Shown piece after piece: positions 33,079 through 39,000 of a stretch of DNA of 64,000 bases. Numbering within the stretch: position 1 is the stretch's first letter; each line of letters begins with the position of its first letter. Both the position numbers and the translations under genes were made by a program. The stretch spans positions 565,501-629,500 of the forward strand of contig CM046853.1 in the NCBI GenBank assembly GCA_025617745.1, given 5' to 3'. This DNA is from Heliocidaris erythrogramma (Eukaryota > Echinodermata > Echinoidea > Camarodonta > Echinometridae). The notes beneath the pieces were generated by a model. It did not search any database. It saw nothing but the letters and a program-made list of their open reading frames with translations, and was not told the DNA's origin.

Positions 33079-36000
33079 CTACATGGTAAAATATCAATAT
33101 AATTCATTGAGTCAGACCATGACTAGACTTTTTTTTTAAATAAACTGAGTATTGTTATTGGTATTGCATTGTCAAAGAGGCTATCTAAAAGTTGTTACGA
33201 TAGATATGATTCAGTACAGGTAGAACATAAGAACAATTGTGTATTGTGAGATTTTCTCATTGACTCACTCTTGCTATATATCGAGAGCCAAGAAAAGCAC
33301 TGCAAGGTAAACAGAGAAGGAAGTGGGGACTATACACAAATGTGGCATATGGTCCACAGATTGGAACTATTTCAACTTATATCTCAAATATGAGGACAAG
33401 AGCAATCCTTTATATGGGACAATGCTAATATACTTCCACGAAGACATAAAAAGAATGAGAAAGCACAAAAGTTATTTTTCATCCTAACTAGATTCCAGCT
33501 TCACTTTAATGCTAGAAAGCGTACCTGGTGGTATCTTACAGACTGTACTTTAATGCTAGAAAGCCTACCTGGTGGTATCTTACAGACTGTACTTTAATGC
33601 TAGAAAGCCTACCTGGTGGTATCTTACAGACTGTACTTTAATGCTAGAAAGCCTACCTGGTGGTATCTTACAGACTGTACATTAATGCTAGAAAGCCTAC
33701 CTGGTGGTATCTTACAGACTGTACATTAATGCTAGAAAGCGTACCTGGTGGTATCTTACAGACTGTACTTTAATGCTAGAAAGCCTACCTGGTGGTATCT
33801 TACAGACTGTACATTAATGCTAGAAAGCATACCTGGTGGTATCTTACAGACTGTACTTTAATGCTAGAAAGCCTAAATGGTGGTATCTTACAGACTGTAC
33901 TTTAATGCTAGAAAGCCTACCTGGTGGTATCTTACAGACTGTACTTTAATGCTAGAAAGCCTACCTGGTGGTATATTACAGACTGTACTTTAATGCTAGA
34001 AAGCCTACCTGGTGGTATCTTACAGACTGTACATTAATGCTAGAAAGCCTACCTGGTGGTATCTTACAGACTGTACATTAATGCTAGAAAGCGTACATGG
34101 TGGTATCTTACAGACTGTACTTTAATGCTAGAAAGCATACCTGGTGGTATCTTACAGACTGTACTTTAATGCTAGAAAGCCTACCTGGTGGTATCTTACA
34201 GACTGTACATTAATGCTAGAAAGCCTACCTGGTGGTATCTTACAGACTGTATTTTAATGCTAGAAAGCCTACCCGGTGGTATCTTACAGACTGTACTTTA
34301 ATGCTAGAAAGCCTACCTGGTGGTATCTTACAGACTGTACATTAATGCTAGAAAGCATACCTGGTGGTATCTTACAGACTGTACTTTAATGCTAGAAAGC
34401 CTAAATGGTGGTATCTTACAGACTGTACTTTAATGCTAGAAAGCGTACCTGGTGGTATCTTACAGACTGTACTTTAATGCTAGAAAGCCTACCTGGTGGT
34501 ATCTTACAGACTATACTTTAATGCTAGAAAGCCTACCTGGTGGTATCTTACAGACTATACTTTAATGCTAGAAAGCCTACCTGGTGGTATCTTACAGACT
34601 GTACATTAAAGGAGAATCAACCCCTAATTACAAATTTACTTATATTGGAAGGTGTAATATATTCCTACTTGTTGGCCTAAATCATTTTCTAATAAGAAAA
34701 TCAGAAAAGGGTGTAAATAAAGATATTCCAACACCCGTTATCGTCTCCTCCTCATTTCCATGGGGGCTGCCATTTTCTTGCTGATTTGGAGTTGTACATG
34801 AACCATTGAGAAATGTTCCAGTCAAGAAGATATTTTGAATCCAAAACCTAAATTGCTTTTCTTCATTACCTAAAATCCCATATGTGACAAAAAATATAAA
34901 GTGGGTGTTTACATGTATTGTAAAAATTAAATCTTTATAATTATATATTTAAATTGTCTGGTTTTGCTTAACAAAAATCTATTTTCTTGGGTTTGCCAAA
35001 CAGAGAAGAACATAATATATGCAGCATGCATTCTGACTTTTCAAGTCCATTATCCGAAAGCAGGTGAATGCATAGTTTGCCGCTATAGATGCTCGGGGAA
35101 GAAGCATCCATAAATTTGAATTAATTTGCTCCGTCCCATGCGTCACAGTATCGAGAAAATAGATTTCTATTAAGCGAATATCGATTTTCAACAGAAATAT
35201 ATAAGGAAATCTTCAGTTTAAAAATAAATTGACATATCTATTCTATATTTTTAATCTCAAACGGGTTTTTAATTTTGAAAGAGGCAATTGGGCATTTGGA
35301 TTAAGAAAATCTTCATGTACACATAAAAAAAATGGCGGCCCCCATGTACTGCTAGCAGACGATACATGTTGCGGGCAGATGATAAATTTTGCTCAGAAAA
35401 TCTTGATTCGTATCGATATCGTAAATTTTGACGCGAAGCCATATAGTCTAACAAGTAGGAATAAATAACACCTTTGAACACTTTCGTCTGTATTTTTTTA
35501 GGTTAATTCTCCTTTAATGCTAGAAAGCCTACCTGGTGGTATCTTACAGACTGTACATTAATGCTAGAAAGCGTACATGGTGGTATCTTACAGACTGTAC
35601 TTTAATGCTAGAAAGCATACCTGGTGGTATCTTACAGACTGTACTTTAATGCTAGAAAGCCTACCTGGTGGTATCTTACAGACTGTACATTAATGCTAGA
35701 AAGCCTACCTGGTGGTATCTTACAGACTGTATTTTAATGCTAGAAAGCCTACCCGGTGGTATCTTACAGACTGTACTTTAATGCTAGAAAGCCTACCTGG
35801 TGGTATCTTACAGACTGTACATTAATGCTAGAAAGCATACCTGGTGGTATCTTACAGACTGTACTTTAATGCTAGAAAGCCTACCTGGTGGTATCTTACA
35901 GACTGTACATTAATGCTAGAAAGCATACCTGGTGGTATCTTACAGACTGTACTTTAATGCTAGAAAGCCTAAATGGTGGTATCTTACAGACTGTACTTTA

Positions 36001-39000
36001 ATGCTAGAAAGCGTACCTGGTGGTATCTTACAGACTGTACTTTAATGCTAGAAAGCCTACCTGGTGGTATCTTACAGACTGTACTTTAATGCTAGAAAGC
36101 CTACCTGGTGGTATCTTACAGACTATACTTTAATGCTAGAAAGCCTACCTGGTGGTATCTTACAGACTGTACATTAAAGGAGAATCAACCCCTAATTACA
36201 AATTTACTTATATTGGAAGGTGTAATATATTCCTACTTGTTGGCCTAAATCATTTTCTAATAAGAAAATCAGAAAAGGGTGTAAATAAAGATATTCCAAC
36301 ACCCGTTATCGTCTCCTCCTCATTTCCATGGGGGCTGCCATTTTCTTGCTGATTTGGAGTTGTACATGAACCATTGAGAAATGTTCCAGTCAAGAAGATA
36401 TTTTGAATCCAAAACCTAAATTGCTTTTCTTCATTACCTAAAATCCCATATGTGACAAAAAATATAAAGTGGGTGTTTACATGTATTGTAAAAATTAAAT
36501 CTTTATAATTATATATTTAAATTGTCTGGTTTTGCTTAACAAAAATCTATTTTCTTGGGTTTGCCAAACAGAGAAGAACATAATATATGCAGCATGCATT
36601 CTGACTTTTCAAGTCCATTATCCGAAAGCAGGTGAATGCATAGTTTGCCGCTATAGATGCTCGGGGAAGAAGCATCCATAAATTTGAATTAATTTGCTCC
36701 GTCCCATGCGTCACAGTATCGAGAAAATAGATTTCTATTAAGCGAATATCGATTTTCAACAGAAATATATAAGGAAATCTTCAGTTTAAAAATAAATTGA
36801 CATATCTATTCTATATTTTTAATCTCAAACGGGTTTTTAATTTTGAAAGAGGCAATTGGGCATTTGGATTAACAAAATCTTCATGTACACATAAAAAAAA
36901 TGGCGGCCCCCATGTACTGCTAGCAGACGATACATGTTGCGGGCAGATGATAAATTTTGCTCAGAAAATCTTGATTCGTATCGATATCGTAAATTTTGAC
37001 GCGAAGCCATATAGTCTAACAAGTAGGAATAAATAACACCTTTGAACACTTTCGTCTGTATTTTTTTAGGTTAATTCTCCTTTAATGCTAGAAAGCCTAC
37101 CTGGTGGTATCTTACAGACTGTACATTAATGCTAGAAAGCGTACCTGGTGGTATCTTACAGACTGTACTTTAATGCTAGAAAGCATACCAGGTGGTATCT
37201 TACAGACTGTACTTTAATGCTAGAAAGCCTACCTGGTGGTATCTTACAGACTGTACATTAATGCTAGAAAGCCTACCTGGTGGTATCTTACAGACTGTAC
37301 ATTAATGCTAGAAAGCCTACCTGGTGGTATCTTACAGACTGTACATTAATGCTAGAAAGCGTACATGGTGGTATCTTACAGACTGTACTTTAATGCTAGA
37401 AAGCATACCTGGTGGTATCTTACAGACTGTATTTTAATGCTAGAAAGCCTACCTGGTGGTATCTTACAGACTGTACATTAATGCTAGAAAGCCTACCTGG
37501 TGGTATCTTACAGACTGTATTTTAATGCTAGAAAGCCTACCTGGTGGTATCTTACAGACTGTACTTTAATGCTAGAAAGCCTACCTGGTGGTTTCTTACA
37601 GACTGTACATTAATGCTAGAAAGCATACCTGGTGGTATCTTACAGACTGTACTTTAATGCTAGAAAGCCTAAATGGTGGTATCTTACAGACTGTACTTTA
37701 ATGCTAGAAAGCGTACCTGGTGGTATCTTACAGACTGTACTTTAATGCTAGAAAGCCTACCTGGTGGTATCTTACAGACTGTACTTTAATGCTAGAAAGC
37801 CTACCTGGTGGTATCTTACAGACTGTACTTTAATGCTAGAAAGCATACCAGGTGGTATCTTACAGACTGTACTTTAATGCTAGAAAGCCTACCTGGTGGT
37901 ATCTTACAGACTGTACATTAATGCTAGAAAGCCTACCTGGTGGTATCTTACAGACTGTACTTTAATGCTAGAAAGCCTACCTGGTGGTATCTTACAGACT
38001 GTACATTAATGCTAGAAAGCCTACCTGGTGGTATCTTACAGACTGTACTTTAATGCTAGAAAGCCTACCTGGTGGTATCTTACAGACTGTACTTTAATGC
38101 TAGAAAGCCTACCTGGTGGTATCTTACAGACTGTACTTTAATGCTCGAAAGCCTACCTGGTGGTATCTTACAGACTGTACTTTAATGCTAGAGAGCGTAC
38201 CTGGTGGTATCTTACAGACTGTACATTAATGCTAGAAAGCCTACCTGGTGGTATCTTACAGACTGTACTTTAATGCTCGAAAGCCTACCTGGTGGTATCT
38301 TACAGACTGTACTTTAATGCTAGAAAGCATACCTGGTGGTATCTTACAGACTGTACTTTAATGCTAGAAAGCCTACCTGGTGGTATCTTACAGACTGTAC
38401 TTTAATGCTAGAAAGCCTACCTGGTGGTATCTTACAGACTGTACTTTAATGCTAGAAAGCCTACCTGGTGGTATCTTACAGACTGTACTTTAATGCTAGA
38501 AAGCCTACCTGGTGGTATCTTACAGACTGTAGCAGGATGCCATCCATATCTCTGATTACAGTTAGGACTCTGAACAAAGATACTGCTATCACTCAAACAT
38601 TCAGCAAACACCTCTCCACCAATATAGTACAACCTCACACCTTTACCTGAAAATACAAAGAGATTCAAGTATCGATATGCTTAATTCATTCATAATACAT
38701 ATCACTCACAATATATTTTCATAGAGCTAGGAGGCCCCCCCCCAAAAAAAAAAAAAAAAAAAAAAATTAAAAATGGTTTGTTTTCCTTCTTCATATCTTT
38801 GGTACATTGTAAATAATAATTCAGACAAAAGGCATTTTATTCTTGTGTATTTGACATAACTTTATACAATTAAAACAGTTGAAACAATTTTCAACAGACC
38901 CAGTAACAAAAAATAACATGTTACAAAATAATAATAAATAAATAATAAATTGCATTTATAATGCGCTTAATACAAATGTTTCTAAGCGCCGAAGTATTAT

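Follow-up and report, generated by a model that had tools for sequence, protein, structure and literature searches.

The Smad2/3 Gene and Array Anatomy

The 64,000-nt stretch of the Heliocidaris erythrogramma genome analyzed here (the window; assembly GCA_025617745.1, contig CM046853.1, positions 565,501–629,500 of the forward strand) carries a Smad2/3 gene on its minus strand, within which a 44-bp segment spanning an exon–intron boundary is repeated in tandem through most of the following intron. The exon in question (138 nt, 38509–38646; acceptor at 38647, donor at 38508) encodes 45 amino acids of the MH2 domain, with a Pfam MH2 match and top PDB matches to Smad2/Smad3 (E 1.2e-27, compared to 1.6e-20 for Smad1). 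The last coding exon (32813–33078, minus strand), which starts at 33078, likewise matches Pfam MH2 and the Smad2/3 structures (E 1.3e-50) and ends, by translation, in CSSMS; these matches confirm for both exons the Smad2/3 MH2 identity proposed in an earlier, sequence-only annotation of this DNA (hereafter, the original prediction). Upstream lie a preceding MH2 exon (39246–39458, minus strand; donor CG|GTAAAC), the upstream end of which is approximate and was read by eye, and an MH1 exon match in Pfam (61254–61499, minus strand), assigned to the same gene by assumption. Given the presence of MH1 and MH2 exons, Smad2/3-type sequence and a C-terminal SSxS end, the gene is, as judged from its sequence, Smad2/3.

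The array spans nucleotides 33503–38531 on the minus strand, beginning 23 nt before the end of the 138-nt exon, consistent with the location and 44-bp unit first proposed. Unit 1 (38488–38531; TACAGTCTGTAAGATACCACCAG|GTAGGCTTTCTAGCATTAAAG) contains the real 5′ splice site (38509|38508) and, as predicted, comprises the last 23 nt of the exon and the first 21 nt of the intron. Because unit 1 coincides with the real boundary, and the exonic half of the unit codes for VCKIPP, a stretch common to solved Smad2/3 structures, we assign the Smad2/3 exon as the source of the array. The evidence supports an amplified exon–intron boundary lying within the intron that follows the exon (33079–38508, minus strand, 5430 nt), of which the array and its insertions make up 92% and the units alone 59%. 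The array edges read CTGC|TACAG, in exon sequence, at one end and ATTAAAG|TGAAGC at the other.

We counted 73 full units, one more than the 72 originally reported, which run along the minus strand in blocks of 33 (units 1–33, 37080–38531), 15 (units 34–48, 35512–36171), and 25 (units 49–73, 33504–34603), for which Tandem Repeats Finder (TRF) gave copy numbers of 33.0, 15.1, and 25.2, respectively. The spacing between units is exactly 44 bp inside each block, so the perfect register described previously holds within blocks, but the array as a whole is broken by two 904-bp mobile elements. The last block closes with ...GCATTAAAG|TGAAGCTGG, beyond which lies the remainder of the intron.

Inserted Mobile Elements

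The two elements (copy 1, 34610–35513; copy 2, 36178–37081; strand not assigned) are each 904 bp in length, end in AGGAG/CTCCT, and differ from each other at one of the 902 positions compared. Both are flanked by TTAA as a target duplication, a tetranucleotide that also occurs within the 44-bp unit itself. One TRF row had joined the DNA between blocks into a 132-bp higher-order unit; this was ruled out, as that DNA is the inserted element. Elements like these are common in the assembly, with 1552 candidates, of which 40 were scored, all at 99–100% identity. At 16 of 20 element loci examined, both array copies among them, TTAA was flagged on both sides, with the element ends mispaired by the script at two of these 16; of the remaining four, the script mis-anchored two, one was displaced by a single base, and one had GTAA in place of TTAA at one end. 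TTAA target duplications and a terminal AGGRR are described as marks of Kolobok-superfamily T2-MITEs (PMC6004289). The AGGAG ends and TTAA duplications of the 904-bp element are fitting for a Kolobok/T2-MITE type, and the element is here a passenger inside the array.

Donor Sites and Their Predicted Products

Splice sites were scored throughout with a set of weights not derived from this species. On this scale, the real donor scored 10.2, compared to 4.1 for the donor of the preceding exon. The donor 9-mer CAG|GTAGGC is exact in 46 of the 73 units, in line with the prediction that most copies retain it, while the GT is kept in 69 units and lost in four; 16 further units carry CAG|GTATGC or CAG|GTACGC, with scores of 9.2–9.4. 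When scored unit by unit, 46 donors of the array span, with the real site among them, equal the real donor, compared to a single donor at or above it among the 695 GTs in the surrounding 12 kb (9.1/kb vs. 0.08/kb), and the dozens of decoy donors anticipated originally are indeed present. Units 1–4 are identical over all 44 nt, exonic and intronic parts alike.

The coding consequences of internal donor use were computed for donors 2–7. Splicing from donor 2 adds 44 nt, shifts the frame, and meets a stop codon at most three codons into the last exon, while donors 3–7 share a stop in unit 3, before the last exon, by predicted translation. The products of donors 2–7 are without the Smad2/3 C-terminus, their MH2 domain being truncated, and the normal Smad2/3 protein therefore needs unit 1, since these later donors shift the frame or meet stops. 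For donors 4–7, decay of the products is predicted, as the stop lies at least 55 nt upstream of the junction.

Conservation of the donor sequence gave no sign of selection for decoy donors across the 73 units, when each 9-mer of the unit was compared: the donor 9-mer, intact in 46, is tied for the lowest among the 36 possible 9-mers. Six of the 13 distinct base changes fall inside it, compared to 2.7 expected (one-sided P 0.033, for a test chosen after seeing the data). RNA folding of the array was ordinary (z −0.41; tandem unit, z 0.02) and no better than that of shuffled sequence. Predicted donor openness was near zero throughout, with unit 1 at 0.001 (59th of 73 from the least open) and a median of 0.0004 in the others. 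The notion that RNA structure hides the decoys is unsupported given this ordinary folding and the uniformly low openness. As single-stranded DNA, the sequence folds somewhat better than its shuffles (z −1.49), as does the plus strand (z −1.81; 7 of 200 shuffles as good).

Growth of the Array

The units differ by 13 distinct base changes (68 in total), which define 16 unit types. Combinations of these variants recur in the same order across blocks (units 19–21, 37–39, and 52–54, for instance, all carry c27 / tt / t27+t43), and self-comparison at an offset of 1568 bp revealed a near-identical segment containing the element plus units on both of its flanks. The ordered recurrence and the duplicated segment are therefore expected under unequal exchange or block duplication once the element had inserted, and not under single-unit slippage alone, and the replication slippage initially suggested is thus incomplete as an account of growth.

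In the sequence of events that we propose, a 44-bp segment over the 3′ exon end and the 5′ splice site would have been tandemly duplicated, and the duplicated boundary would then have expanded into the 73-unit intronic minisatellite through unequal exchange and block duplication. One unit would have received a TTAA-targeting mobile element, which would later have been duplicated together with its surroundings. This last duplication is probably recent, given the one-base difference between the element copies, and copy-number change in the array is likely still continuing.

Locus Specificity

The original prediction would have been undermined by a 44-mer dispersed elsewhere in the genome as a satellite unrelated to Smad2/3. 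In a search of the 1.06-Gb assembly that ignores very common words and scores the best candidates only, all 22 matches to an array query lay inside this array, with none outside; a dispersed satellite is accordingly rejected as far as this search reached. With a query that included the exon, 72 of 74 matches were inside the array. The other two lie on C15, in an MH2 gene whose match passes uninterrupted through the equivalent of the boundary position.

We noted that this gene, which we take to be Smad1/5-like, occurs twice on G000:C15 (~2.96–2.99 Mb and 3.28–3.31 Mb; L051–L054), with both MH1 and MH2 matches. Toward the MH2 end, the two copies agree at 99.8% over 9.9 kb, and toward the MH1 end at 96.7% over 8.4 kb; they may represent a recent duplication or a retained second haplotype. 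Elsewhere in the assembly, contig C24 (12,905 bases) gave a family match to cox1, and its translations, read by eye for the remaining genes, gave the mitochondrial order cox1, nad4L, cox2, atp6, cox3, nad3, nad4, nad5, nad6 (reverse), cob, together with four tRNAs, TGA as Trp, and AAA compatible with Asn. Among echinoderms, this arrangement is that of sea urchins or sea cucumbers, and the sequence most resembles that of a sea urchin.

Similar Boundary Repeats Elsewhere in the Genome

The recurrence of such boundary repeats was gauged on 100 exon ends, comprising 60 of 74 myosin-head and 40 of 133 kinase profile matches, the kinase set being hand-picked short internal matches. These ends were deduced from profile matches, not transcripts, and flagged cases were inspected visually. 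All 100 ends went through a 12-mer donor scan, and TRF was run on the 60 myosin, 40 kinase, and 15 Smad loci. A small donor repeat similar to the array was found at one of the 100 ends, in a myosin-head exon (L088; G000:C18:14538390-14539100, minus strand) with ~3 copies of a 20-bp unit, AATCAG|GTGACTTGTGTATT, that comprises 6 nt of the exon and its apparent donor (AATCAG|GTGACT).

Two further cases are boundary duplications with few copies. In one (L103; G000:C1:31992510-31993170, minus strand), an 84-bp stretch holding the donor and 3′ part of a myosin exon recurs 207 bp downstream at 88% identity, and the duplicate may be an alternative exon. The other (L148; G000:C2:54223020-54223770, minus strand) is an acceptor-side counterpart in a kinase gene, where a 176-bp tandem repeat (2.3 copies) includes the acceptor and the start of the exon. 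A 12-mer acceptor scan of the 60 myosin exons found none. Other arrays lie just inside introns and do not cross the donor (e.g., L061, L076, L099, and L139); TRF flagged one of the 40 kinase loci (L139, read as intronic), and L091 was also flagged in the scans. Raw repeat matches near myosin exon ends (6/60) were not clearly enriched over control windows (12/180). Taken together, the small donor repeat and the two few-copy boundary duplications suggest that events of this type have happened repeatedly in this genome.

Proposed Choice of the First Donor and Alternative Readings

We consider it likely that the array is a boundary-derived minisatellite that is tolerated since the first donor is normally used, with the products of later donors truncated and mostly degraded. 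Dozens of donors in the pre-mRNA have the real sequence, and exon definition and transcription order would normally lead to choice of the first, the sole donor placed immediately after the 138-nt exon and its upstream acceptor. Leak products would be truncated and are, for the most part, predicted to be degraded. We infer first-donor dominance, near neutrality of the array, and degradation of what leaks through. Several points weigh against this account. The identity of units 1–4 means that local sequence alone cannot mark unit 1, and in vitro work is reported to show that, of two equal 5′ splice sites each occupied by U1, the site closer to the acceptor can be the one used, a preference that would favor the last units of the array. 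The use of downstream units as donors in the IFI6 minisatellite (see below) makes leak use plausible here. Finally, the real last acceptor is itself modest (0.8), and acceptors in units 34 and 49 score above it (3.4).

Whether internal units could also act as acceptors bears on two rival readings. The TTTCTAG and GTACAG motifs said to occur in every copy are nearly universal, with 70 and 65 occurrences, respectively, across the array span, and were regarded as potential acceptors for micro-exons. Typical in-unit acceptors are weak, with median scores of −2.4 for TTTCTAG, −3.8 for GTACAG, and −0.3 for CCACCAG, all below both of the gene's real acceptors that were scored (0.8 for the last exon and 6.3 for the 138-nt exon), but 5 of 205 reach 0.9 to 3.4, at or above the weaker real one. 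These are units 16 and 31 (TTTCTAG, 0.9), unit 63 (CCACCAG, 0.9), and units 34 and 49 (GTACAG, 3.4). The latter two (36171–36128 and 34603–34560) stand directly behind the mobile elements and owe their relatively strong context to the adjoining element end, which lends a pyrimidine stretch (TTCTCCTTTAATG) upstream, so that a usable 18-nt exon may twice have arisen through the element. Micro-exons running from a GTACAG acceptor to CAG|GTAGGC would preserve the frame (...VCKIPPVCKIPPGCNLK...) and insert VCKIPP, thereby varying MH2, and units 34 and 49, with a consensus donor and an acceptor score between those of the two real sites, would be the best candidates. We nevertheless regard a role for the array as a source of micro-exons as very improbable, given the low median of the GTACAG acceptors, the insertion point within a conserved MH2 stretch, and the 31-nt alternative from TTTCTAG, which is out of frame and meets a stop. 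Equally little credence attaches to self-restoring (recursive) splicing, where AG|GT would serve as both acceptor and donor, and splicing from unit 1 to a later unit would rebuild the same boundary and render internal use harmless. In its favor, the array span contains 62 copies of the required CCACCAGG, the usual score of which (−0.3) exceeds those of the other two in-unit acceptors and approaches that of the real last one, and intron gain through AGGT that, once duplicated in tandem, works as donor and acceptor alike is an accepted mechanism (PMC3443670). If true, such self-restoring 44-nt steps would let a vital gene bear dozens of perfect decoy donors free of cost. However, the pyrimidine tract is poor, a score of −0.3 is not unusual (86.7th percentile of 736 AGs outside the array), and one 44-nt unit is probably too short as an intron.

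A third reading, in which the array acts as a splicing or expression rheostat, is unlikely in our estimation, albeit less so than the two above. Regulated use of internal donors would here yield truncated or degraded Smad2/3 and tune its level by array length or U1 availability, and a shortage of U1 could, as a corollary, cause cleavage at in-array ATTAAA, a variant poly(A) hexamer found at unit positions 38–43, just downstream of the donor. Consistent with this, GT is kept in nearly all units and the real donor 9-mer in 46, at over a hundredfold the nearby density of such donors, every one of donors 2–7 truncates MH2, and ATTAAA is present in 53 units (57 copies counting those in the elements), a density of 11.3/kb in the array span compared to 0.90/kb for the rest of the window on that strand. 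Yet the donor stretch is no more conserved than the rest of the unit, and both the hexamer and donor counts are explained by the unit sequence alone. An assembly artefact, with a genuine array of erroneous length or a spurious second element copy, is a poorer prospect than the rheostat, if somewhat better than either acceptor-based reading. Long, near-identical tandem DNA, element copies one base apart, and the near-identical duplicated MH1/MH2 locus on C15 of the same assembly (possibly a retained haplotype) all speak for it, whereas the 16 unit types in ordered blocks and the base difference between the elements are unlike simple collapse or looping.

The locus offers a natural test of 5′ splice-site choice, whether by position behind the exon, transcription order, or nearness to the acceptor, because the identity of units 1–4 prevents local sequence from separating the real donor from the next decoys. 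If copy number differs between individuals, this test becomes graded. The locus also indicates that tens of copies of a boundary can arise and persist within a signalling gene.

Comparison with Known Systems

The closest known system is the minisatellite of IFI6, where downstream repeat units serve as donors, giving three mRNA species (PMC4526556). As in IFI6, the units of the array could supply splice donors, the repeat starts at the exon–intron boundary, and the donor is intact in several units, 46 of 73 in this case. The IFI6 unit is reportedly 12 bp, so that use of a unit keeps the frame. Here, in contrast, the unit is 44 bp and donors 2–7 shift the frame or add a stop, and the 73 units are split by mobile elements and lie in an MH2-coding gene. 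The Smad2/3 array is thus an extreme splice-donor minisatellite of a kind with precedent in IFI6, its novelty lying in its size, the out-of-frame unit, and the gene concerned.

Tandem duplication of AGGT-containing segments is also described as making extra splice sites and leading to intron gain (PMC3443670); here, the boundary of an existing intron has been copied many times, enlarging that intron, and no new intron has formed. Our literature search found no other splice-donor minisatellite named in the titles and abstract openings listed besides IFI6. The introns of earthworm metallothionein contain minisatellites, with no statement in the available part of that source that they span a splice site (PMC12783039), and one further candidate precedent (PMC5816747) is unrelated.

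Other Features of the Window

Further tandem arrays occur at 41431–42255 (168 bp × 5) and 60138–60837 (161 bp × 4.3), with no overlap with the exons found. Near the MH1 exon, a 1.27-kb AGGG-type repeat tract (62006–63280; in TRF, ~309 repeats of a 4-base unit with 69% matches) is probably G-quadruplex-prone, judging by its composition. The region at 49987–54584 (minus strand) contains mobile-element-like open reading frames (ORFs), one with a weak phage-integrase-type match below the Pfam cut-off, which is presumably what a tyrosine-recombinase retrotransposon would give. Lastly, C2H2 zinc-finger-like exons upstream of a long Ser/Gln-rich ORF are present at 17207–22356 on the plus strand (one zinc finger just below the cut-off), in a gene that we presume to be perhaps of the Gli type.

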